Of a stretch of DNA of 64,000 nucleotides, positions 814 to 63,132 are shown in pieces. Location: NCBI RefSeq assembly GCF_032598905.1, contig NZ_CP122458.1:1054001-1118000 (forward strand), written 5' to 3'. A program made the translations under genes and the position numbers. Numbering within the stretch: position 1 is the first letter of the stretch; each line of letters starts with the position of its first letter. Source of the stretch: Streptomyces sp. 11x1. GTDB taxonomy: Bacteria; Actinomycetota; Actinomycetes; Streptomycetales; Streptomycetaceae. The notes beneath the pieces were generated by a model that saw nothing but the letters and a program-made list of their open reading frames with translations, did no database searches and had not been told where the DNA came from.

Positions 814-3075
814 TCACAGGTACTCGATCAGCTTGTCGAGGGTGATGGGCACGTTGCGCACCCGGATCCCGGTGGCGTTGTGGACGGCGTTCCCGATCGC
901 GGCCGCCGAGCCCACCGTGCCGATCTCCCCGAGACCGCGGGCGCCGAGGCTCCTGGTCCCGACGTCCTCGCTGCCGTCGCCCAGCGGGCCGGTGAGGACA
1001 GGGTCGGGCCGGCCGAGCAGGTGCACGTCGATGTCGGGGACGTCGGCGTTCACGGGCACGAGATAGTCGGCCAGCGTGCTGGACGCCAGGCGCCCGGTGT
1101 CGAGTTCCAACGGGTTCTCCTCCAGCAGGGCGTGCCCCATGCCGAAGATGACGCCGCCGACGAGCTGGCTCCGGGCGGCCCGGGAGTTGATGACACGGCC
1201 GACGTCCGCGACGGTGGTGAACCGGGTGACGCGGGTCTCGCCGGTGAACCGGTTGACCCGCACCTCGCAGAAGTGAGCGCCGAAGCTGTGGTGCACGTAC
1301 CCCGGGGCGGCGTCGCCGGATGACTCGGCGAGGGCAGTGATGCCTGGTGAGTCGACAGCGGCCAGCAGGCGGCCGAAGGTCATCGACCGGCCCTGGCCGT
1401 GCAGGATGCCGCGCTCGTAGCGCAGGTCGTCGGCGCTCGCGCCGTGCCACGGCGACCTGTCGTCGGTGACGGCGAGCAACTTGAGCTCGTTGATCGCGTC
1501 GCGCGCGGCGTTCACGATCAACGGCACGGTGGCGTGCGTGGCGCTGGACCCGGCGGCGGGCGCGCCCTGCGGCAGCAGGGTGTCGCCGATCTCAGCCGTC
1601 ACTCGCGTCAACGGGATCCCCAGGGCGTCGGCGCCGGAGATCCCCACCATGGTCGCCCCGCCGGTGCCGAAGTCCGAGATCCCGGTCGAGACCACGGCGG
1701 TGTCGTCGTCGATCAACCGGACCCGCACGCTCGCCGCCCGGCGGTGCGCCGGGTAGATGGCGGTGGCCATGCCGGTGCCGTACAGCCACTGCCCGTCGAC
1801 GCGTGAGCGGGGCGTGGCGCTGCGGGCCGACCAGCCGAATCGCCGCGCGCCGACGCGGTAGCACTCCTCGAGGTGTTTGCTCGACCACGGCAGGCCCGTG
1901 GAAGGGCTGGTGGTGGCGTAGTTGCGTAGCCTCAGCTCCACCGGGTCGACGCCGGTGGCGATGGCCAGCTCGTCCATCGCCGTCTCCAGGGCGAAGGCCC
2001 CGGGTGCCTCGTTGGGGCCGCGCATCGCCCGGCTCCCGGGGATGTCGAGGACGGCCAGCTGTGCGTCGACATGCAGGTTCGGCGTGCGGTAGAGCGCGTC
2101 GGTGGTGGCGTGCGCCGGAGTCATGGGGAAGGTGACGGTGGTCGGGCGCTCGGAGACGCTCTGGTGGCTGACGGCGTTGAGGACACCGTCGCGGGAGGCG
2201 CCCAGCCGGACGGTCTGCGTGAGCTGGGGCCGGTGGCCGGTGAGGGTGAACATCTGCTCGCGGGTGAGGACGAGCCGGACCGGGCGGCCGATCTCCCGGG
2301 CCGCGGCGGCGGCGAGCGGGGTGTCGCTCCACAGGATGACGCGGGCGCCGAAGGCGCCGCCCACGTACTTCGTGATCAGCCGGACGTTCTGGGGCGGGAC
2401 ACCGAGACGCTGGGCCATCCCGAGTGCGTACGCCGAGGGGACCTGCGCACCGGCGTGGAGGGTGACCCGGTCACCTTTCCAGACGGCGAGCATGGCGTGG
2501 GGCTCCATCGCCACGTGGTGTTGCATGTGCTGGTGGAACTCGGCCTCCACGACGACGTCGCTGGCGGCGAGCGCGGCGTCGATCGAGGCGACGCCGGGCG
2601 CCAGGACAGTGAGGCTGCTCGGTGACCCACTGATGGTGGGGCCGGCCGGAACGTGGGGCTCGTCCGCGATCGAGGTGCGCGGTGGCTGGGTGTCGTAGGT
2701 CGCGGTGACCCTCGCGGCGGCGTCGCGTGCCTGCTCGGGGGTCTCGGCGACGACCATCGCGATGGCCTGGCCGTGGAAGCGGACCTCCGTGTCGCGCAGC
2801 GGGACGTAGTTCTCGACGAAGCCGGCGAGCGGGCCGGTGATGGGATGCAGGCCCAGGCGGGGGTCCGGCGCGGCGTACACGCGCAGGACACCGGGTGAGG
2901 CCAGCGCGGCCGCGGTGTCGATCCCGGTGAGAGTGCCTCGCGCGACGGTGCTGGTGACGAGATGCGCGTGTGCGAGGTCGGCGGCGCGATAGTCACCGGA
3001 GTACTCGGCCGCGCCGGTGGCTTTCAGCCTGCCGTCGACGCGCTCGGTCTCGCGTCCGACTGGGGAACGAAGCAT
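814..3075 (-). CDS. paoC: Xanthine dehydrogenase/aldehyde oxidase family molybdopterin-binding subunit
   Basis: The 753-residue product is the large catalytic subunit of a molybdenum hydroxylase, closest in layout to the PaoABC/YagTSR aldehyde oxidoreductases. The N-terminus carries the GRLKATGAAEYSGD substrate-channel motif. VGGAFGAR and MRGPNEAPGAFALE follow as cofactor-contact motifs, and near the C-terminus GLGEIGTVG contains the glutamate that acts as base in this family. The start at 3075 is chosen because AAGGA lies just upstream and xdhC stops 10 bases before; an in-frame start at 3123 would overlap xdhC and adds no conserved residues. It is the last gene of a four-gene operon with the Fe-S, FAD and XdhC genes. 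The substrate cannot be told from sequence; aromatic aldehydes or N-heterocycles are typical. Confidence 0.9.
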   Translation of the reverse strand: MLRSPVGRETERVDGRLKATGAAEYSGDYRAADLAHAHLVTSTVARGTLTGIDTAAALASPGVLRVYAAPDPRLGLHPITGPLAGFVENYVPLRDTEVRFHGQAIAMVVAETPEQARDAAARVTATYDTQPPRTSIADEPHVPAGPTISGSPSSLTVLAPGVASIDAALAASDVVVEAEFHQHMQHHVAMEPHAMLAVWKGDRVTLHAGAQVPSAYALGMAQRLGVPPQNVRLITKYVGGAFGARVILWSDTPLAAAAAREIGRPVRLVLTREQMFTLTGHRPQLTQTVRLGASRDGVLNAVSHQSVSERPTTVTFPMTPAHATTDALYRTPNLHVDAQLAVLDIPGSRAMRGPNEAPGAFALETAMDELAIATGVDPVELRLRNYATTSPSTGLPWSSKHLEECYRVGARRFGWSARSATPRSRVDGQWLYGTGMATAIYPAHRRAASVRVRLIDDDTAVVSTGISDFGTGGATMVGISGADALGIPLTRVTAEIGDTLLPQGAPAAGSSATHATVPLIVNAARDAINELKLLAVTDDRSPWHGASADDLRYERGILHGQGRSMTFGRLLAAVDSPGITALAESSGDAAPGYVHHSFGAHFCEVRVNRFTGETRVTRFTTVADVGRVINSRAARSQLVGGVIFGMGHALLEENPLELDTGRLASSTLADYLVPVNADVPDIDVHLLGRPDPVLTGPLGDGSEDVGTRSLGARGLGEIGTVGSAAAIGNAVHNATGIRVRNVPITLDKLIEYL

Positions 3076-3085
3076 CGTGAATCCT

Positions 3086-4231
3086 TCAGCTGCTGGATGC
3101 GAGTGCGCCGGTCGACGGGGCACTGCGGTGGATGGGGACGCCGGTGCTCAGGGGTGCCCCCGAGCCGCCGTGCCGGTGGGCGACGATCTCCGCGGCGATC
3201 GACAGCGCGATCTCCTGCGGGGTACGTGCCCCGAGATCGAGGCCGATGGGCGAGTGCAGGCGATCGAGCTCGCCGCTGGTGAGACCGGCGTGGCGGAGCC
3301 GGGCCAGGCGTTCCTCGTGGGTGCGGCGGGACCCCATGGCCCCCACATACGCAACCGGCATGCGCAGCGCGGCGGTCAGGAGCGGCAGGTCGAACTTGGG
3401 GTCGTGGGTGAGCACGCACACGACGGTGCGCTGGTCGAGCAGCCCGGCCTCGGCCTGGGACCCGAGATGACGGTGCGGCCATTCGACGACGACCTCCGCG
3501 TCCGGGAATCGTTCCGGGGTGGCGAACGTGGCCCTGGCGTCGCAGACAGTCACCCGGTACCCGAGGAAGGAGCCGAGCCGGGCCAGCGCGGCGGCGTGGT
3601 CGATGGCGCCGAAGACCAGCATCCGGGGCGGTGGGGAACTGGACTCCACCAGCAGGGTCATGGGCTCCCGGCAGTAGCTGTCGGCCACCCCGAGCTCGAG
3701 CGTGCCCGTTTGCCCGGCGTGCAGGGCGCCGGTGGTCTGTGCCTCGGCGACCTGGTCGAGCAGTTCGTCCCCGAGCGTTCCCGCGATGGGCCGCCCGGGC
3801 CGCACGGCGATCGTTCGGCCGAGGTGGGTCTGCGGACCGCGCACGATCCTGGCCACGGCCACCGCCCGGCCGCTCGCGGCATCGGCCAGAACCGTTTCGA
3901 GCCATGGTTCGGCGCCCGGGTCGTGGTGGCGCAGGAGGAGCTCGATGGTGCCGCCGCAGGTCAGACCTACGTCCAGCGCGTCGGCGTCGCTGTATCCGAA
4001 CCGCAGGGCCCTGGGTCGGTGGTCCCCGGCCAGCATCTCCCGACACGCGTCGTGGACAGCGGCGTCGACGCACCCGCCCGACACGTTGCCCAGCACGGTG
4101 CCGTCCGCGTTCACGACCAGGGACGAGCCGGGCTGCCGCGGAGCGCTGCCGGCCACGCTCGTGACGGTGGCGGCCACGAACGGCGTCTCACGGCGGACAC
4201 GTTCGACAAGGTCAGCGGCGATTTCAAGCAT
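3086..4231 (-). CDS. xdhC: XdhC family molybdenum-cofactor maturation protein
   Basis: The 381-residue protein has the two XdhC halves. The N-terminal XdhC/CoxI domain shows VAGSAPRQPGSSLVV, GNVSGGCVDAAV and GLTCGGTIELLL. The C-terminal Rossmann-like domain shows RMLVFGAIDHAAALARLGS and later YVGAMGSRRTHEERLARL. XdhC proteins bind sulfurated molybdenum cofactor and load it into the large subunit of xanthine dehydrogenase-like enzymes in the cytoplasm. It sits between the FAD and Mo subunit genes, with a 66-base gap upstream and 10 bases downstream. In E. coli paoABCD the equivalent gene is last, so this order is different. The glutamine/glycine-rich C-terminal 20 residues are poorly conserved. 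Confidence 0.9.
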   Translation of the reverse strand: MLEIAADLVERVRRETPFVAATVTSVAGSAPRQPGSSLVVNADGTVLGNVSGGCVDAAVHDACREMLAGDHRPRALRFGYSDADALDVGLTCGGTIELLLRHHDPGAEPWLETVLADAASGRAVAVARIVRGPQTHLGRTIAVRPGRPIAGTLGDELLDQVAEAQTTGALHAGQTGTLELGVADSYCREPMTLLVESSSPPPRMLVFGAIDHAAALARLGSFLGYRVTVCDARATFATPERFPDAEVVVEWPHRHLGSQAEAGLLDQRTVVCVLTHDPKFDLPLLTAALRMPVAYVGAMGSRRTHEERLARLRHAGLTSGELDRLHSPIGLDLGARTPQEIALSIAAEIVAHRHGGSGAPLSTGVPIHRSAPSTGALASSS

Positions 4232-4297
4232 GCTCGCCGCCAGATCGGGGACCGTCTGCCTCGACGGCGTCAGGCCGGGCAGGGGTACGCCGGCCGC

Positions 4298-5274
4298 TCA
4301 CCGGTTCTCGTGCAGTTCGGTCAGCGCGCGTACCAGGGTGCGACGCAGCAGCGCGGGCTTGAACCGGTTGTGCTCCCGTGGTCGGGCGCCCTCGGCGGCA
4401 CCGGCGACGGCCGCCTCGAATGTCGCGGAGGTGGCGGGCCTGCCCGCCAGGGCCCGTTCGACGGCCGTCAGTCTCCATGGCCTGGTCCCCACTCCGCCGA
4501 CGGCGATCCGGGCGTTCACGATGGTGCGCCCGCGCAGTTGGAGGGCGACGGCGGCGGAGGTGAGCGCGAACTCGTACGACTGCCGGTCGCGGATCTTCAC
4601 GTACAGCGAGTGCGCCGCCCAGGGCGAGCGGGGCACGGTGATCCCGGTGATGAGCTCGTTCGGCCGCAGCACGTTCTCGATGTCGGGGGTGGCACCGGGC
4701 AGGGTGTAGAACGTGTCCAGGGGTACGGAGCGCGCGCCGCGTGCCGAGGCCAGGTGCACGGTCGTGCTCAACGCCACCAGCGGGACAGCGAGGTCGCTGG
4801 GATGGGTGGCGATGCACGCGTGGCTGGTGCCCAGGACGGCGTGGTTGCGGTTGATCCCATTCAGTGCTGAGCAGCCGCTGCCCGGCTCGCGCTTGTTGCA
4901 CGGGGTCGTGACGTCGCGGAAATAGCCGCACCGCGTGCGCTGCAGCAGGTTGCCGCCGATGCTCGCCATGTTGCGCAGTTGGGCCGAGGCACTCAGCTCC
5001 AGCGCCTGCGCGACCATCGGGTAGTGCCGTCGCACAGCGGGTGCGGCGGCCACGTCACTCATTCGTTCGAGCGCGCCGACGTGCAGACCCTTGTGGTCCA
5101 GAGTGAGGCCGTCCAGTGGCAGCCGGTTGATGTCCACGACACGGTCGGGCGACATCACCTCGAGTTTCATGAGGTCCACGAGGGTGGTGCCACCGGCCAG
5201 GAACGCGGTGTCCGGCCCGGCGCCCCGCACGGCCTCACGGACCGTCCGTGCCTGGGCGTAGATGTAGGGCCGCA

Positions 5275-5275
<1 letters not shown>
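4298..5275 (-). CDS. paoB: FAD-binding subunit of molybdenum hydroxylase
   Basis: This 325-residue protein is the flavin subunit that passes electrons from the Fe-S clusters to the acceptor. FAD-binding motifs of the CO dehydrogenase/xanthine dehydrogenase flavoprotein family are visible: FLAGGTTLVDLMKLEV near residue 25, and NMASIGGNLLQRTRCGYFRD near residue 105 with the pyrophosphate-binding GGN. A cysteine pair around residues 113-128 (RCGYFRD and PCNKREPGSGC) fits the extra 4Fe-4S site known in PaoB. The ATG overlaps the stop of paoA by one base (TGATG), which indicates translational coupling. A longer in-frame start exists at 5335 but lies inside paoA. Confidence 0.9.
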
Positions 5276-5898
<623 letters not shown>

Positions 5899-6100
5899 CA
5901 AGTGCCTCCTGGCTGGTCGCAAGTCGGGGCAGGGGCAGGCCGACGTCGCGCGACCATCCATGTGGCCGCCGGGTCAAGCGCTGCTCCAAGGCTGGCCGTC
6001 GGGAGCAGGATCATCCAGGCTCTGCCGATCCCAGGCTGAGATCGAGCTGAAGGGGCTGGAGCGGGCGCCGATCCGGGTCCGCGGCATGATGCGGGATCGG

Positions 6101-54987: not shown

Positions 54988-55017
54988 CTTTACCATCTTG
55001 TTGCCTGACTCAAGTAA
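54988..55017. promoter_or_regulatory. Candidate MarR operator between divergent genes
   Basis: TTTACCATCTTG at one side and CAAGTAAA on the other form an interrupted inverted repeat (CTTG/CAAG and TTTA/TAAA). It is AT-rich in a GC-rich context and lies between the MarR start at 54979 and the esterase start at 55064, so it could overlap both promoters. Confidence 0.5.
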
Positions 55018-55063
55018 ATTCATCGCACGAGTAGCCCCCGCTCCCACGTCCGAACGGAGCCCC

Positions 55064-56020
55064 ATGTCCCTTCTCGCCCGCCCGGCGGTGGCCGCCTTCG
55101 CGGCCAAGGCGATGCAGCGTATCTCGGCGGCGGCCAGCCGCCGGGCCGGTGGGCGGGGCTCCGCCGCCGAGTGGCGCGCCCGCCTTCCCGAGTACGCCTG
55201 CGTCTCCCGCGAGTTGACGGTCCCCACCGCGTACGGCCCGGCCCGTGCCGTGCTGTACCTGCCGACCGGTGAGGGCACCTCTCCCCCGCCGGTCCACGTC
55301 AACTTCCACGGCGGCGGCTACGTCCTGCCCCAGATCGAGCTGGACGACGCGCTGTGCCGGTGCATAGCCGTCGAGGCGGGCTCGGCCGTGCTCAACGTGG
55401 ACTACGTGGTCGCCCCGCAGCACCCGTTCCCGGCACCGCCCCGGCAGGCGTACGAGATCGTGCGCTGGGTGGCCGGACATGGGGGCGAGCACGGCTGGGA
55501 CGGCGACCGGCTCTCGGTGGGCGGCCAGAGCGCGGGCGGCGGCCTCGCGGCGGCGGTGGCCCGTCAGGCCCTGGAGGAGAAAGGCCCCTCGATCGCGCTC
55601 CAGGTCCTGCACTATCCGCCGCTGGACCTCGCCACCGCCGCCCGCGACAAGCGGGCCGCGATCGCCCGGCCGATGCTGCGGCCGTGGATGGCGGACGTCT
55701 TCGACAGCGCGTACATCCCGGACCCGGAGCGGCGGGCCGACCGCCTTGCCTCTCCGGCGCACCCCTCGGACACGGCCGACCTCAGGGGCATCGCCCCGGC
55801 CTTCGTCGTCACCGCCGAGTTCGACCTGCTCAAGGCCGAGGCCGTCGCCTACGCCGACCGGCTCCGCACGGCCGGGTCGCTGGTCGGTCACCACGACGTG
55901 GTCGGCGCCGACCACGGCTACGACACCGGCGACGAGGCCCGGGCCCGTGAGGTGTACCCGCTGATCGCCGCCCGCGTACGACAGGCCTTCGCCACGGGGG
56001 CGGGCGAGGAGATGGTGTAG
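55064..56020 (+). CDS. Alpha/beta hydrolase of the HSL/Est family
   Basis: The 318-residue protein has HGG in VHVNFHGGGYVLPQIELDDA, the nucleophile in LSVGGQSAGGGLAAAVARQA, the acidic residue in TAEFDLLKAEAVAYADRL and His in VVGADHGYDTGDEA. The start at 55064 has CGGAG eight bases before it; an upstream in-frame ATG at 54998 falls in the operator. An N-terminal amphipathic part (VAAFAAKAMQRISAAASRRA) precedes the fold. The neighbouring MarR gene is a likely regulator. The catabolic cluster begins directly after it on the other strand. Confidence 0.9.
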   Translation: MSLLARPAVAAFAAKAMQRISAAASRRAGGRGSAAEWRARLPEYACVSRELTVPTAYGPARAVLYLPTGEGTSPPPVHVNFHGGGYVLPQIELDDALCRCIAVEAGSAVLNVDYVVAPQHPFPAPPRQAYEIVRWVAGHGGEHGWDGDRLSVGGQSAGGGLAAAVARQALEEKGPSIALQVLHYPPLDLATAARDKRAAIARPMLRPWMADVFDSAYIPDPERRADRLASPAHPSDTADLRGIAPAFVVTAEFDLLKAEAVAYADRLRTAGSLVGHHDVVGADHGYDTGDEARAREVYPLIAARVRQAFATGAGEEMV

Positions 56021-56127: not shown

Positions 56128-57078
56128 TCAGTCGACCGGCGGGGTGCCGTGCGTGTGGAACGACTCGATGGTCCGCAGACCCCATGCCTGGCCCTTGGCG
56201 CGCTCCGCCTGGGTCCAGGTGACGAGCGGCCAGTCGGGGGCGAGGACGAGCCGGGTGAGCGGGTTGCACAGCTCGATCCGGTTGCCGCCCGGCTCGTAGA
56301 CGTAGAGGAAGAACGTCTGCTGGATGGCGTGCTTGTGCGGGCCCGTCTCGATGAACACGCCCTGGTCGAGGCAGAGATCGGCGGCCCGCAGGATGTCCTC
56401 GCGGGTGTCCGTGGCGAACGCGATGTGGTGCAGTCGGCCGCGTGAGCCGGTCCAGTCCTCGGTGTAGACGACGTCGTACGACTTGTTGGTGAAGGTGAGC
56501 CACTGGGCGGCGACCTTCCCGGTGTCGAGGACGATCTGCTCCGTGGCGCGGGCGCCGAGGACGTCGCGGGTGAAGGCGGCGTTGGCCCCGACGGCGGAGG
56601 CGAGGAAGTTGACGTGGTCGAGGCGGCGTACGCCGACCCCGTGCCCGGGTTTGGCCTGGGGCTGGTTCTTCAGGCCGGGCCGGAGGTCGGCCGGCGCGTC
56701 GTACCACTCGCTCTCCCAGTACAGGGCGAGTTCGTGGCCGTCGGGGTCCGTGGTGACGTACAGCGGGCCGATGCCCGGTTCGTCCTCGACCCAGCGGCCC
56801 GCGCGGCCGGTGCTCTCCAGTTCCCCGACCCGACGCCGCAGGGCCTCCTCGCTGGAGGTCCGCAGCGCGGTGCGGCGGATGCCGCTCGTGGAGTGGGCGG
56901 TGAGGGTGAGGCTGTGGTGTTCGTAGTCGTCCCAGGTCCGCAGGTGGACCGAGCCGCCGGAGCGGCCGTTCTCCGTCAGGCCCAGGATCTCGGTGAAGAA
57001 CCAGAGGCTGCGGTCGAGGTCGGGGGTGAGCAGTTCGACATGGCCGAGATGGGCGATGTCGCCGAGCGGCGGGGCCAT
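56128..57078 (-). CDS. VOC-type extradiol ring-cleavage dioxygenase
   Basis: The 316-residue protein has two VOC modules as in type I catechol 2,3-dioxygenases: DIAHLGHVELLTPDLDRSLW (first metal-like His but in the inactive N-terminal module), then HGVGVRRLDHVNFLASAVGA with one metal His, GRLHHIAFATDTREDILRAA with a second His, and the terminal YEPGGNRIELCNPLTRL with the metal Glu. All three iron ligands of the C-terminal module are present. It is the last gene of a cluster with PrpF, RraA and PIG-L family genes whose products match the gallate route. Known gallate dioxygenases are LigB-type, not VOC, so the substrate is open. Confidence 0.88.
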   Translation of the reverse strand: MAPPLGDIAHLGHVELLTPDLDRSLWFFTEILGLTENGRSGGSVHLRTWDDYEHHSLTLTAHSTSGIRRTALRTSSEEALRRRVGELESTGRAGRWVEDEPGIGPLYVTTDPDGHELALYWESEWYDAPADLRPGLKNQPQAKPGHGVGVRRLDHVNFLASAVGANAAFTRDVLGARATEQIVLDTGKVAAQWLTFTNKSYDVVYTEDWTGSRGRLHHIAFATDTREDILRAADLCLDQGVFIETGPHKHAIQQTFFLYVYEPGGNRIELCNPLTRLVLAPDWPLVTWTQAERAKGQAWGLRTIESFHTHGTPPVD

Positions 57079-57114
57079 CGGTGACTCCTTAGTGGGCGAG
57101 GGGACGGCCGCGGG

Positions 57115-58203
57115 TCAGGGGCGGGCGGCGGGGCCTGCGGGCCGGGGGAACACCGTGCCGTCGAAGATCTTTCGGGCGGTGCGGACGACGGCCGTGCGGC
57201 GCGCCGAGGGAGCGCCGTCGGGGCCGTGGGTCACCCGGGTCTCCATGTCGAGGAAGCCCGTCGGGTGTTCGATGCGCAATCGGTCGCCCGTAGCAGGGAG
57301 TTGGGCGATTCCTTCGCCCACTCCTCCGGCGACGCGCAGGCCGGCGGCCACGCTCGCGGCGCCGAGCACCCCGATGGAGGGGTGGCAGCGGACCGGGATG
57401 AAGGTACGGGTGGTGACCGCGCCGCCGCACCGGGGCGGGGCGAGCAGACTGAGTTTGGGCACGGTGGTGCGTTCGACGTCGCCGAGTCCCATCAGCGGCC
57501 CGGCCGCGCGTCTGATCTCGTGCAGCCGGCCGGTCAGGGCGACCTCGCTCTCCAGGGCCTCGGGCGTCTCGTGACCGGTGACGCCGAGGGCGGCGGCGGG
57601 TATCAGCACGGTGGGCATGCCGTTGTCCACGCAGGTCACCTCGGTGCCGGCGACCAGGTCACGGGCGTTGCCGGTGGGCAACAGCGGCCTGCCGCCCGGC
57701 GGGAACTCGATCACCACCGGCGCGGCCGTCCCCGGCACCCCGGAGATCTCCGCGTCCCCGGTGACCGCGACGCGGCCGCCGGGGGTGGGGAAGGTGGCGA
57801 CAGCGAGGTCACCGGTGTTGAGCATGCGGACCCGGACGGAGGTCTCCGGCTCGCCGACGGTCACCAGTCCACGTTCGACGGCGAACGGGCCGACGCCCGC
57901 GAGCAGATTGCCGCAGTTCTGACGATCACTCACCTCGTTTGCGTCGACGCCGACTTGGAGGAACAGATAGTCGACGTCGGCCTCGGGGTCGGCCGACACG
58001 GACACCATGGCCACCTTGCTGGTCAGAGGGTGGGCCCCGCCCAGGCCGTCGATCTGGCGCGGGTCCGGGCTGCCCATGACGCGCAGCAGGAGTTCATCCC
58101 GGTCGGCCGCGCGGGCGGGGAGGTCCCCGGCGAGGAAGTAGGCGCCCTTGGAGGTGCCGCCGCGCATCAGCATGCAGCGGACCCCGTCGGACCACCCGGT
58201 CAC
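57115..58203 (-). CDS. PrpF-family 4-oxalomesaconate tautomerase-like protein
   Basis: The 362-residue protein is PrpF-like: VRCMLMRGGTSKGAYFLAGD, DGLGGAHPLTSKVAMVSVSA, RQNCGNLLAGVGPFAVERGL with the catalytic Cys, and VTCVDNGMPTVLIPAAALGV with the second Asn/Asp motif. Family members such as GalD of Pseudomonas interconvert 4-oxalomesaconate tautomers. It lies between the VOC dioxygenase (36 bases downstream) and the RraA-type gene (37 bases upstream). Confidence 0.88.
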   Translation of the reverse strand: MTGWSDGVRCMLMRGGTSKGAYFLAGDLPARAADRDELLLRVMGSPDPRQIDGLGGAHPLTSKVAMVSVSADPEADVDYLFLQVGVDANEVSDRQNCGNLLAGVGPFAVERGLVTVGEPETSVRVRMLNTGDLAVATFPTPGGRVAVTGDAEISGVPGTAAPVVIEFPPGGRPLLPTGNARDLVAGTEVTCVDNGMPTVLIPAAALGVTGHETPEALESEVALTGRLHEIRRAAGPLMGLGDVERTTVPKLSLLAPPRCGGAVTTRTFIPVRCHPSIGVLGAASVAAGLRVAGGVGEGIAQLPATGDRLRIEHPTGFLDMETRVTHGPDGAPSARRTAVVRTARKIFDGTVFPRPAGPAARP

Positions 58204-58240
58204 CGCCGGGCCCTTCCGCCGACGTACAGGGGGCTCGGCG

Positions 58241-58951
58241 TCACGACTCGGCGCTCTCGTTCTCGTGGTCCTCGTACGACCGGTAGGTCACCCCGAGGCC
58301 TGCGAGCGTCTCGCGCAACCCGTAGCGGTCCAGGCCCAGTTGGCCGTCGAGGAAGGCGGCGCGAGAGGCGGCCTCCCTGCGTTCGCGGGCCGCGGAGGCC
58401 TCGGCCGTCCGGCGGGCCCGTGACCGGGGGACGACGACCACGCCGTCGTCGTCGGCGAGGATCACGTCACCGGGGTGGACGGGCCGGCCTCCTACGGCCA
58501 CGGGCACGTTGACGGACCCGCCGGTGGCCTTCACCGTGCCCTGGGCGCTGACGGCGGCGGCCCAGACGGGGAAGTCCATCGCGCGGAGCTCCGCGGTGTC
58601 CCGCACACCGGCGTCGATGACCAGGCCGCGTACGCCACGCCGCCTGAGGGCGGTGGCGAAGAGTTCGCCGAACATGCCGTCCGTGGAGGGCGAGGTGGTG
58701 GTGACGACGAGGATGTCGCCCTCGCCGCACTGCTCGACCGCCGCGTGGATCATGAGGTTGTCGCCGGGCCAGGAGAGGACGGTGACGGCGGTGCCGACGA
58801 TCCGGGTGTCCCGCTGGATCGGACGGAGGTGGGTGCCGAGCAGGCCGGTGCGGCCCATCGCCTCGTGGACGGTGGCGACGCCGTACCGGCCGATCGCCTC
58901 GACGTCCGCGGGGTCCGCCTTCGGCGGGTTGGTGACGATCACGCCGCCCAT
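58241..58951 (-). CDS. RraA/HMG-CHA aldolase family protein (GalC-like)
   Basis: The 236-residue protein shows RYGVATVHEAMGRTGLLGTH, VQ-type metal motif VEQCGEGDILVVTTTSPSTD, RGLVIDAGVRDTAELRAMDF with the catalytic Arg and Asp, and HPGDVILADDDGVVVVPRSR. This set identifies the 4-carboxy-4-hydroxy-2-oxoadipate aldolase/oxaloacetate decarboxylase group (LigK/GalC). Products would be pyruvate and oxaloacetate. The start codon shares one base with the stop of the upstream PIG-L gene (TGATG). Confidence 0.9.
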   Translation of the reverse strand: MGGVIVTNPPKADPADVEAIGRYGVATVHEAMGRTGLLGTHLRPIQRDTRIVGTAVTVLSWPGDNLMIHAAVEQCGEGDILVVTTTSPSTDGMFGELFATALRRRGVRGLVIDAGVRDTAELRAMDFPVWAAAVSAQGTVKATGGSVNVPVAVGGRPVHPGDVILADDDGVVVVPRSRARRTAEASAARERREAASRAAFLDGQLGLDRYGLRETLAGLGVTYRSYEDHENESAES

Positions 58952-59706
58952 CAGTCCAGCACCCCCGTGACCTGCGGGTAGGGGCGCATGTAGGCCTCGG
59001 CCATGGTCCGGTGCGCGAGGCCCAGGTTGGGGCCCGCATTGCGCTTGAGCTGGACGCCCCGGCGTACGGCGAGGTCGGTGTAGTAGTCCCACAGGTGCCG
59101 TTGTGCGCCCAGGCACTCCATGGCCATGCGCTTGGTCTCCCAGACCTCGGTGATGTCGAGCAGGACCTGGGGCTTGAAGCCGCACATCTCGGGCTGGTGC
59201 GGCTCGAAGAAGAACACCGGCGGGGCTCCGATGATCTCGCCCTCGGCCGGGTAGCCGATGGCCTGGGCGAGGACCCGGGCATCCATGGCCATGCGGGAGG
59301 CGGCCGGGTGGTCGCCGTTGTAGGGGTCCTCCAGGGGGTGGGTGAGGACGACGTCCGGCTGGGCCGCGCGGTAGACGGTGACCAGCCGGTCGGTGAGCTC
59401 CGGGGTGCCGGTCAGCGGGTAGTCGCCGGCGTCGAAGAAGACGATCCCGGCGCCGAGGGTCGCGGCGGCCTTCTCGGCCTCCTCGCGGCGGATCGCCTTG
59501 ATCTCGTCGAGGGTCCGGCCCTCGCGCCAGGCCTTGGCGGACTCGCCGCGCTCACCGAAGGTGAGGCAGGCGATGGTGACCCGCTCCCCGCGCGAGGCCG
59601 CGAGGGCGATGGCGCCGCCGGCCCTCCACACGAAGTCCCCCGCGTGCGCGGTGATGACGAGTGTCGATCGTGGTGGGGCGGCGTCGGACGTCGTGCCGTC
59701 GGTCAT
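58951..59706 (-). CDS. PIG-L family hydrolase, 4-oxalomesaconate hydratase-like (GalB)
   Basis: The 251-residue protein has the LmbE/PIG-L zinc site: LVITAHAGDFVWRAGGAIAL (His and Asp near residue 20) and the third ligand in LTHPLEDPYNGDHPAASRMA. A glutamate-rich central helix follows. Although the fold suggests deacetylases, GalB of Pseudomonas belongs to it and hydrates 4-oxalomesaconate. The adjacent GalC and GalD homologues support that role here. It is the first structural gene after the GntR regulator, with an 80-base gap. Confidence 0.85.
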   Translation of the reverse strand: MTDGTTSDAAPPRSTLVITAHAGDFVWRAGGAIALAASRGERVTIACLTFGERGESAKAWREGRTLDEIKAIRREEAEKAAATLGAGIVFFDAGDYPLTGTPELTDRLVTVYRAAQPDVVLTHPLEDPYNGDHPAASRMAMDARVLAQAIGYPAEGEIIGAPPVFFFEPHQPEMCGFKPQVLLDITEVWETKRMAMECLGAQRHLWDYYTDLAVRRGVQLKRNAGPNLGLAHRTMAEAYMRPYPQVTGVLD

Positions 59707-59786: not shown

Positions 59787-60437
59787 CTATTCGCGCAGCG
59801 CGGCGATCACGCTCGTGAGGTGGACGCGGACGGCCTCCTCGGCCGCCCGCGGGTCCCTCGCCGTGATCGTCTCGATCATGGCCAGGTGTTCACCCAGGGA
59901 GTGCTGGGGCCGTCCCGGCCGCAGCGCGAGCTGGAAGCGGTGGCGGACCAGCTGGGCGTTGAGCCGTTCCAGCAGTTCCACGGCCACCCGCTGGCCGGAG
60001 ATCTCCCGGATGCGGGCATGCAGCCGCTGGTTCAGCTCGGAGTACGTCACCGGCTCTCCGTCGGCCACGGCTTTGGTCATCGCCGTGCCGATGTCGGCCA
60101 GTTCGGCCAGCTCGTCGTCGGTGGCCACAGTGGCCGCCTTCGCCGCGCACAGCCCTTCCAGCACCATGCGGCACTCGCTGATGGCGACCGCTTCCTCCAC
60201 GGTCACCACCCGCACCCGCGAGCCGCGGTTGCGGATGCGCTCGACCAGCCCTTCGGCCTCCAGATCGATCAGTGCCGCGCGGATGCTGGCCCGTGTCACA
60301 CCGAACTGCTCGGCGAGTTCGTTCTCCACCAGCCGTTGGGCCGGTGCCATCTCGCCTCGCAGGATCGCCTGCCGCAGCTTCGCCAGCGCGAGCTGTTTGG
60401 CCTGCTCCCCGGTGCCCGGACGGGCTTCCTCCTGCAT
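59787..60437 (-). CDS. GntR family regulator (FadR/FCD subfamily)
   Basis: The 216-residue protein has the GntR winged helix (LAKLRQAILRGEMAPAQRLV, ELAEQFGVTRASIRAALIDL) and an all-helical FCD domain (ECRMVLEGLCAAKAATVATD, with the metal-binding His-type residues in YSELNQRLHARIREISGQRV and HLAMIETITARD). Such regulators sense organic acids. It is directly upstream of the galB-like gene and probably controls the cluster. A 24-base near-palindrome sits 45 bases before its start. Confidence 0.9.
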   Translation of the reverse strand: MQEEARPGTGEQAKQLALAKLRQAILRGEMAPAQRLVENELAEQFGVTRASIRAALIDLEAEGLVERIRNRGSRVRVVTVEEAVAISECRMVLEGLCAAKAATVATDDELAELADIGTAMTKAVADGEPVTYSELNQRLHARIREISGQRVAVELLERLNAQLVRHRFQLALRPGRPQHSLGEHLAMIETITARDPRAAEEAVRVHLTSVIAALRE

Positions 60438-61284: not shown

Positions 61285-63132
61285 TCACTCGGCGCCCACG
61301 AGCACGTCGTCGAAGCCGCCGTCCGCACGCCATCGCCGGAGCAGTTCGTGGAAGGCGACGGGTCCGTCGCCGTACGACTCGCTGCGCTCCCTGGGCCGGC
61401 CCTCGTTGTTGTAGTAGCCGGGGGTGCACTCCGCCTGGAACTTGTACAGGTCGGCAGCCTTCTCGCGGATGGTGGCGACCCAGGAGTCCTGGGCCTCGGC
61501 GCTCGGCTCCACGTACCGGGCTCGGCGCCTGCGGGCCTCGGCGACGACCTCGCCCACATGGATCGACTGCTGGTCGAGGATGTGGACGTAGTTGACGGCG
61601 CTGGCGTTCTGCAGCGGGCCGAGCTGGAAGAGGTTGGGGAAGCCATGGCTGTAGAAGCCGTGGAGGGTCTTCGGGCCGGTCGCCATCCAGGTCTCCAGCA
61701 AGCCGACGCCGTCCCGGCCGTACGCGGGGAGGCGGCCGGAGAGCAGACCCGAGACACCGACCTCGAAGCCGGTGGCGAAGATGACGCAGTCCACCTCGTA
61801 CTCGACCCCGCCGACCACCACGGCCTTCTCGGTGATCCGCTCGACGCCGTGTGTGTCGGCCGTGTCGACGAGGGTGACGTTGGGCCGGTTGAAGGTCTGG
61901 AGGTAGTGGTCGCTGAAGGTGGGCCGCTTGCACATGTAGCGGTACCAGGGCTTCAGCTTCTCGGCGGTCTCCGGGTCCTCGACGATCGTCGCCACGCGGT
62001 CGCGCAGCTCGTTCATCTTCTGGAAGTCGGCGATCTCGTAGGCCCGTTCCCGCTCGTCCGGCGGGACGTCGTCGTACGCGTCGGTCGGGATCAGCTTCTC
62101 CTGGAGACGGGCGCTGCTGGTCCAGGCGTCGTTCACCAGGTCCGTCCCGGCCCGGACGCCGGTGACGGTCTTCAGGAAGTTGTCCATGCGCGCGGCCTGC
62201 CAGCCGGGGGCCAGCGTCCTCGCCCACTCCGGGTCGGTGGGCCCGTTGCCGCGGACGTCCACCGTGGAGGGGGTGCGCTGGAAGACGTAGAGGTGGGCCG
62301 CGTCGGCCCCCAGGTGGGGGACGACCTGGATGGCGGTGGCGCCGGTGCCGATGACGGCCACGCGCTTGTCGGCGAGGCCGGTGAGACCGCCGTTCGCGTC
62401 GCCGCCGGTGTAGTCGTAGTCCCAGCGGCTGGTGTGGAAAGTGTGGCCCTTGAAGGTCTCGATGCCGGGGATGCCGGGGAGTTTGGGCCGGCTGAGTGCG
62501 CCGCTGGAGACGACCACATACCGGGCGCGCATGCGGTCGCCCCGGTCGGTGGAGACGATCCACTCCAACTCGGTCTCGTCCCAGCGCAGTTCGGTGGCGA
62601 CCGTCTGGAAGGCGGCGTCCCGGTAGAGGTCGAAGTGGCGGCCGATCGCCCGGGAGTGCTGCCGGATCTCCTCGCCCGGGGCGTACTTCCACCGCGGGAC
62701 GTAGCCCAGCTCTTCGAGCAGCGGCAGATAGATGTACGACTCGATGTCGCAGTGGATGCCCGGGTAGCGGTTCCAGTACCAGGTGCCGCCGAAGTCGCTG
62801 CCCTTCTCGATCACCCGGATCGACTCGACGCCCGCCTGGCGCAGTCTGGCCCCGGCGAGCAGCCCGCCGAAGCCGCCGCCGACGACGACCGCCTCGACCC
62901 GGTCGGTCAGCGGCTCGCGGGTGAACTCCCCGTCGGCGTAAGGGTCGTCGTCGTAGTGCCCGAACTCGCCGGCGATCCGCTGGTACTGCTGGCCGCCGTC
63001 CGGACGGATCCGGCGTTCACGCTCGGCGCGGTAGCGGGCGCGGAGGGCGTCCGGGTCGAAGCCGAGCGCCTCGAAGCCGAGTTCCTCGGGGTCGAGGAAC
63101 GGGGGGCCGGAGGAAGTGTGGGGGGTGGACAT
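61285..63132 (-). CDS. Baeyer-Villiger monooxygenase
   Basis: The 615-residue flavoprotein has an N-terminal extension of about 80 residues typical of the CPDMO/OTEMO-size class, then FAD site EAVVVGGGFGGLLAGARLRQ, the BVMO fingerprint in ETFKGHTFHTSRWDYDYTGG (FxGxxxHxxxW, here with D after W) and the NADPH site RVAVIGTGATAIQVVPHLGA. CVIFATGFEVGVSGLLSGRL completes the pattern. It inserts oxygen next to a ketone, giving an ester or lactone. The immediately upstream SDR could supply the ketone. Whether it serves the galB-D cluster is unclear, because decayed genes lie between. Confidence 0.93.
   Translation of the reverse strand: MSTPHTSSGPPFLDPEELGFEALGFDPDALRARYRAERERRIRPDGGQQYQRIAGEFGHYDDDPYADGEFTREPLTDRVEAVVVGGGFGGLLAGARLRQAGVESIRVIEKGSDFGGTWYWNRYPGIHCDIESYIYLPLLEELGYVPRWKYAPGEEIRQHSRAIGRHFDLYRDAAFQTVATELRWDETELEWIVSTDRGDRMRARYVVVSSGALSRPKLPGIPGIETFKGHTFHTSRWDYDYTGGDANGGLTGLADKRVAVIGTGATAIQVVPHLGADAAHLYVFQRTPSTVDVRGNGPTDPEWARTLAPGWQAARMDNFLKTVTGVRAGTDLVNDAWTSSARLQEKLIPTDAYDDVPPDERERAYEIADFQKMNELRDRVATIVEDPETAEKLKPWYRYMCKRPTFSDHYLQTFNRPNVTLVDTADTHGVERITEKAVVVGGVEYEVDCVIFATGFEVGVSGLLSGRLPAYGRDGVGLLETWMATGPKTLHGFYSHGFPNLFQLGPLQNASAVNYVHILDQQSIHVGEVVAEARRRRARYVEPSAEAQDSWVATIREKAADLYKFQAECTPGYYNNEGRPRERSESYGDGPVAFHELLRRWRADGGFDDVLVGAE

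Follow-up and report, generated by a model that had tools for sequence, protein, structure and literature searches.

The window analysed here, a stretch of 64,000 nucleotides from the 10.67 Mb genome of Streptomyces sp. 11x1 (positions 1,054,001 to 1,118,000 of contig NZ_CP122458.1), carries a gene block in which a ring-cleaving dioxygenase of the type I, or VOC, class directly adjoins the genes for GalB, GalC and GalD, the enzymes that process 4-oxalomesaconate (OMA). We propose, with a probability of about three in four, that this block represents a self-contained gallate catabolic operon, in which the VOC enzyme would stand in, without homology, for the LigB-fold gallate dioxygenases GalA/DesB. 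The pathway is a known one, with a variant ring-opening step. Gallate would be taken up, in most relatives by an MFS transporter that is encoded downstream (an MFS aromatic-acid transporter was absent among the neighbours tested beside the window operon). The VOC dioxygenase would cleave the ring bond that joins two hydroxylated carbons, which yields OMA, GalD would convert OMA to its enol form, GalB would hydrate this form, and GalC would cleave the hydrated product into pyruvate and oxaloacetate, the whole presumably being regulated by the GntR/FCD protein encoded at the head of the block.

The genes are arranged on the reverse strand in the order GntR/FCD, GalB, GalC, GalD, VOC (Table 1). 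The start ATG of GalC overlaps the stop codon of GalB (TGATG; the upstream GTG of the mechanically called open reading frame is not the start), and gaps of 37 and 36 bases separate GalC from GalD and GalD from VOC, respectively. The best PDB chains are 6p3j for GalD (oxalomesaconate delta-isomerase, 363 bits), 3noj for GalC (4-carboxy-4-hydroxy-2-oxoadipate (CHA) aldolase, 252 bits) and 5cgz for GalB (4-oxalomesaconate hydratase, 275 bits); in NCBIfam, GalB hits thiol-deacetylase models only, all below their cut-offs. GalC and GalB are each the sole match in the genome, at E<=1e-45 and E<=1e-30, respectively. Family scores and PDB matches thus confirm, for positions 56128-59706, the original prediction made from the sequence alone, namely that homologues of GalB, GalC and GalD occur together and contiguous with a type I VOC gene.

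The two-domain VOC protein (Pfam domain PF00903) belongs to the catechol 2,3-dioxygenase group TIGR03211 (330.8 bits, cut-off 320.2), and its relatives are annotated in the databases as catechol 2,3- (or 1,2-) dioxygenase. Its structure model, which is based on relatives of at least 73% identity and was used for the fold only (pLDDT is below 50 at residues 134-142, 250-254, 275-279 and 296-316), has the VOC fold and matches type I enzymes, not the LigB fold that marks GalA/DesB; we therefore propose that the protein may work like GalA without being a member of that family. The iron ligands H155, H218 and E269 (2-His-1-Glu) all lie in the C-terminal module, as had been predicted. The second-shell residues H250 and Y259, equivalent to His248 and Tyr257 of HPCD, are kept as well, and all five residues are identical in 34 of 34 further Streptomyces VOC proteins. 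This conservation speaks against the view that the protein is no dioxygenase but, for instance, binds or isomerises OMA while an unlinked enzyme opens the ring. The exchange of another second-shell His of type I enzymes for Tyr (see below) could be taken in its favour; since the block holds no other ring-cleaving candidate and no LigB-type gallate dioxygenase was found in the genome, we consider this view very improbable.

The linkage between the VOC gene and the gal genes is not due to chance. Loci and genomes are denoted below by our own L and G numbers. In 67 of the 80 named loci, which are the best 80 of 583 confirmed with the VOC protein as query, GalB, GalC and GalD are all encoded within 3.5 kb of the VOC gene; eight loci have GalC and GalD only, one GalD only, one GalB and GalC only, and three none (L030, and L027 and L035 at contig ends). 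The GntR/FCD gene is found upstream on the same strand in 76 of the 80. An MFS transporter gene is part of the VOC gene cluster in 58, typically directly downstream, and the one that was tested is nearest to the aromatic acid/H+ symport model (285 bits, under the cut-off of 418.55). The open reading frame caller behind this count clustered the VOC gene in 72 of the 80 loci, and other cluster counts derived from it are probably low.

Among 150 Streptomyces genomes, drawn evenly, the VOC protein (E<=1e-90) is present in 35 and GalD scores above its cut-off in 42. VOC and GalD are adjacent, on the same strand and 15-164 bases apart, in all 35 VOC-positive genomes, a neighbourhood comparison that supports the original prediction. 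Seven genomes have GalD without VOC. Two of these contain what resemble decayed copies of the VOC operon, and five a different operon, with LigJ, GalC and a GalD 42-47% identical to that of the window, alongside LigI- and MFS-like frames (LigI, MFS and LigJ were confirmed by family test in L155). In L155, L157, L154, L159, L160 and L207-L212 a Streptomyces operon was seen that combines LigJ with LigI and MFS, in some cases also with GalC and GalD, without a ring-cleaving enzyme being noticed in the stretches read; this operon possibly allows 2-pyrone-4,6-dicarboxylate itself to be taken up and used. Of 296 Actinomycetota genomes scanned, 20 gave a VOC match (E<=1e-40). The six loci at 54-56% identity, which belong to one family outside Streptomyces (L118-L123), all encode GalB and GalC and no GalD was detected in them; tautomerisation may be spontaneous there or be performed by another protein.

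The association extends to other phyla. Outside the 80-locus set, 24 loci encode a VOC protein at least about 52% identical, 20 of them with GalB, GalC or GalD within 3.5 kb and four without. Plasmids of Agrobacterium, Rhizobium, Thioclava and a Paracoccaceae strain share the order GalB-VOC-GalC-GalD. On a Roseibium plasmid the VOC gene stands first in the gal order, another Agrobacterium has GalC-GalD-transporter protein-VOC (with no GalB in the stretch read), and Thermus oshimai has VOC, GntR, GalB and GalC. On a plasmid of Pantoea piersonii, genes for DUF1932, GalD, GalC and GalB diverge from those for a LysR regulator, an aromatic-acid/H+ symporter and VOC; judged by its genes, this cluster amounts to the known gal set, except that galA is replaced by VOC. 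In a walnut Agrobacterium (plasmid pAt), GalB-VOC-GalC-GalD is followed by a gene of the tannase/feruloyl esterase family (PF07519, 437.9 bits). Three Thioclava strains have a tannase-family gene as well, on a different plasmid from VOC; the tannase locus was read in one of them. An NAD(P)-dependent oxidoreductase of the DUF1932 type recurs beside the VOC-gal clusters of Proteobacteria and Thermus (PF09130 tested in L111, L112 and L115; annotated as DUF1932 in L110, L116, L144, L147 and L148, and as NAD(P)-dependent oxidoreductase in L146 and L149).

What the VOC enzyme produces can be approached through the genomes in which GalB is missing. At thresholds of E<=1e-60 for GalB and E<=1e-90 for the LigJ-type hydratase, GalB is lacking in five of the 35 VOC-positive Streptomyces genomes (G308, G346, G347, G349 and G246). 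LigJ is present in all five, compared with 8 of the 30 VOC genomes that do have GalB and 17 of the 115 genomes that lack VOC (Fisher p=0.004 for the GalB/LigJ association, kinship ignored). Including the genomes reached from eight named loci, LigJ was found in 11 of 11 distinct GalB-less VOC genomes tested (G440 and G444 repeat G347 and G246; the GalB-less loci L010 and L030 lay outside the LigJ test). In G308 and G346 the VOC operon also lacks GalC, and the sole GalC (E<=1e-45) adjoins LigJ, with no LigI seen in the 11.5 kb read around LigJ in G308. In G349, G347 and G246 the VOC operon holds the sole matches to GalC and GalD, and LigI and MFS are found in the stretch around LigJ. Each of the five genomes thus retains a single GalC and a single GalD, with the steps divided over two loci, which is most easily explained if both routes meet at OMA. 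Since GalB-less VOC operons coexist with a LigJ encoded at another site of the same genome, OMA is most likely what the VOC enzyme produces.

The genome offers no evident alternative for ring cleavage. Three LigB-fold genes are located at 1.59, 2.05 and 6.14 Mb, far from the operon: one is MhpB-like (482 bits, cut-off 291), and the others, which score below cut-off, are DODA-like and HpaD-like. On the MhpB-like gene the gallate dioxygenase model reaches only 48 bits (cut-off 412), on the other two it gives no match at E<=1e-10, and a LigB-type gallate dioxygenase was found neither elsewhere in the genome nor beyond the window in the same operon. LigJ- and LigI-type queries had no genome match at E<=1e-15, so that a pyrone route was rejected for this organism; the combination of LigI with a LigB-type protocatechuate or gallate dioxygenase, typical of protocatechuate 4,5-cleavage via the pyrone, was likewise not found in the genome. 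The predicted lack of LigB-type gallate dioxygenase and LigI therefore stands, and it combines with the synteny across phyla and the exchange of GalB for LigJ to support a type I enzyme that would feed OMA.

The genome does encode PcaH, the beta subunit of protocatechuate 3,4-dioxygenase (346.8 bits, cut-off 296.4), which gives protocatechuate a separate route. This bears on the suggestion that the substrate of the VOC enzyme is another catechol, either protocatechuate or an alkylcatechol as with AphC, and that GalB, GalC and GalD serve a different feed. The closest relative with a known ligand is indeed AphC, solved with 4-ethylcatechol according to its PDB title, and TIGR03211 is named after catechol 2,3-dioxygenase. 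The VOC gene, however, is closely linked to the OMA enzymes, the block is devoid of a semialdehyde dehydrogenase, a hydrolase and LigI, and AphC falls outside the gal-linked clade and differs at residue 201. With PcaH to handle protocatechuate, this suggestion is improbable.

Gallic acid is a product of plant tannins and lignin, and a major plant carbon source derived from tannins and syringyl lignin. As the simplest compound that yields OMA by a single ring cleavage, gallate is a well-founded candidate for the substrate. The tannase neighbor in Agrobacterium and the gal layout in Pantoea narrow the substrate to gallate as the best bet, in line with the symporter, the separate protocatechuate route and the VanAB reported from Streptomyces, which converts syringate to 3-O-methylgallate and gallate (PMC9867520, in the part available). 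The original prediction, which left the substrate unassigned and placed the entry at OMA or an analogue, is thereby upheld for the entry and sharpened for the substrate.

That same VanAB mixture also favors the foremost competing explanation, in which the VOC enzyme cleaves 3-O-methylgallate formed from syringate and an esterase encoded outside the operon hydrolyses the ring-opened methyl ester to OMA. A linear route of this kind is used by Pseudomonas NGC7 according to the accessible text of PMC12314914, and relatives of the alpha/beta hydrolase of the window (54998-56020) occur in 16 of the 80 loci. It would need additional enzymes, as the operon holds neither an MgaC-like hydrolase nor an MgaD-like isomerase. 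Furthermore, two Streptomyces genomes with the VOC operon, G396 and G393, hold a separate LigB-type cluster that would suit methylgallate. We regard this explanation as unlikely, if less so than the cleavage of another catechol. The clusters in question (L213, G396:C1:10500000-10516000; L214, G393) encode LigA, LigB, a muconolactone-isomerase-like protein, an alpha/beta hydrolase, a VanA-type Rieske oxygenase, a Fer2 reductase-like protein and a second GalB, in L213 additionally with GalC and GntR-like genes (families were tested for L213 only). They look like a syringate/3-O-methylgallate route via a LigB-type dioxygenase.

The gal-linked VOC proteins share an exchange that the original prediction had missed and that is new in this analysis. 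At the position of His200 in HPCD, AphC and XylE have His, whereas the VOC protein of the window has Tyr201 and the protein of PDB entry 9wgj also has Tyr. The second-shell set His200/His248/Tyr257, which is shared by the three characterised enzymes compared and is not a profile feature, is therefore only partly present in the window protein. The three residues are described as favouring extradiol over intradiol cleavage (PMC6308299, in the excerpt available). In 121 VOC rows from 118 loci (matches with fewer than 200 aligned residues were dropped, each locus still yielding at least one row), Tyr occupies position 201 in 97 of 97 gal-linked rows and in seven unlinked ones, although many of the rows are near relatives; it is also found in 34 of 34 further Streptomyces proteins, partly from the same species as the first set. 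His is found in 17 rows at 29.8-43.6% identity, none of them near gal genes. One of the 17, from Thermus thermophilus pTT27, adjoins classical meta-pathway genes. Clustering with an unrelated meta-cleavage pathway, which would have told against the original prediction, is accordingly seen only among distant relatives, and in part in L110 (see below).

Phylogenetic placement agrees with this division. In a tree of 62 rows (from 16 of the 80 named loci plus all rows of L110-L137 and L143-L152, with a long-branch warning for HPCD and XylE), all Tyr rows, the window protein and 9wgj form one clade with support 100/98. AphC is placed outside it among unlinked rows; the branch that makes the AphC group the nearest neighbor is weak (80/23).

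One study reportedly turned HPCD into an intradiol enzyme by a change of His200. The hydroxyls of gallate are at C3, C4 and C5, and formation of OMA cuts C4-C5 (or C3-C4 by symmetry), a cleavage that counts as extradiol relative to one pair of hydroxyls and as intradiol relative to the other. Because the cut lies between two hydroxylated carbons, the choice between the two modes would leave the product unchanged. Any functional consequence of Tyr201 is speculative. It is an evenly balanced proposition that a clade of VOC-fold gallate dioxygenases (Actinomycetota, Alpha- and Gammaproteobacteria, Thermus) arose apart from the LigB-fold ones and swapped His for Tyr because both outcomes coincide on symmetric gallate.

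Several observations weigh against a gallate operon with a VOC-type dioxygenase. Active extradiol enzymes seldom lack the second-shell His. Arg243 and Arg293 of HPCD bind carboxylate, and T245 and G296 take their positions in the window protein. LigJ also accompanies GalB in the eight VOC genomes mentioned above, and phylogeny-aware pairs give a median p of 0.5 for the GalB/LigJ association, with none in the opposite direction; this test has no power, as only 3-4 independent changes exist (its G419 row, in the wrong frame, is a false long branch). The tannase linkage in Agrobacterium comprises 19 plasmid records that are near-identical and count as one case from one lineage, and PF07519 also takes in feruloyl esterases. 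L030, a second Streptomyces copy, lacks gal genes, the same species having the full operon at L057. Finally, four loci inside the clade have no gal gene within 3.5 kb: Roseomonas (L110), Methylobacterium (L111, with ligK beginning about 7 kb from VOC), a Pantoea plasmid (L114, with GalD about 6 kb away) and Chimaeribacter (L145, with no pathway gene annotated in the stretch read). The VOC gene of L110 stands beside a LigAB-type dioxygenase, a hydrolase, a Rieske oxygenase and a PDR/VanB reductase, and could belong to a syringate or vanillate cluster.

Table 1. Genes of the conserved block, with coordinates within the window
Gene product	Position	Strand	Evidence
VOC (type I) ring-cleaving dioxygenase, proposed gallate dioxygenase	56128-57078	-	Ligands H155/H218/E269; Tyr201 at HPCD His200 position
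GalD, 4-oxalomesaconate tautomerase (PrpF fold)	57115-58203	-	NF033377, 471.5 bits (cut-off 440)
GalC, 4-carboxy-4-hydroxy-2-oxoadipate aldolase (RraA fold), 236 aa	58241-58951	-	NF006731, 325 bits (cut-off 179)
GalB, 4-oxalomesaconate hydratase (PIG-L fold)	58951-59706	-	PF02585
GntR/FCD regulator, heading the conserved block	59787-60437	-	PF00392 + PF07729

Two genes upstream of the operon were rejected as core parts, each being present in 4 of the 80 loci: a Baeyer-Villiger-type monooxygenase (61285-63132; NF045818, 747.5 bits, under the cut-off of 1100) and an SDR protein (63255-64199, its end past the window). Both also lie upstream of the operon in L006, L024 and L047. The monooxygenase and GntR genes are about 3.7 kb apart in L006, with further genes between them, versus about 0.8 kb in the window, which suggests a deletion in the latter. 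A second PrpF-family protein (1051036-1052106 of the contig, about 1.9 kb left of the window) scores 251.6 bits, under the OMA tautomerase cut-off. Window positions 814-5961 contain open reading frames that we take, from their sequence starts and with no search made, to resemble a molybdenum hydroxylase operon with an XdhC-like gene.

If the proposal holds, gallate use in genomes that seemingly lack the pathway would be explained by a second ring-cleaving family, unrelated to the known one, which would also supply a second enzyme for lignin conversion and a natural test of the role of His200 in extradiol enzymes. The accessible part of PMC4250580 omits gallate from the substrates listed for type I enzymes and assigns gallate dioxygenases to the LigB family. 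Among the matches listed in the open PMC literature, searched by title and start of the abstract (subscription journals and preprints being outside this scope), there was no description of a VOC-type gallate dioxygenase.

Among the known systems, AphC of Rhodococcus RHA1 (PDB 7q2a, 3lm4) shares the His200 of HPCD and lies outside the gal-linked clade, unlike the Tyr-bearing window protein, whereas 9wgj, named Catechol 1,2-dioxygenase by its depositors, resembles the latter in residue and clade; it was not among the PDB fold-search matches of the VOC model, an absence that excludes nothing. The LigI/LigJ/LigK/LigU route via 2-pyrone-4,6-dicarboxylate has the OMA steps in common with the VOC operon but enters through the pyrone, and the Streptomyces operon of the LigI/LigJ type, in which no ring-cleaving gene was seen in the operons read, supplies LigJ in the GalB-less VOC genomes. 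A further close system is formed by the gal genes of Pseudomonas putida KT2440 (galTAP, galBCD, galR; PMC12314914 and PMC9942251, as far as available). It has the same GalB, GalC and GalD reactions, an MFS gene lies alongside in 58 of the 80 VOC relatives too, and its LysR-centred layout is also found in the Pantoea VOC relative. In P. putida, however, the LigB-fold GalA opens the ring under a LysR regulator, whereas the Streptomyces operon has a type I VOC enzyme and a GntR/FCD regulator in their place.

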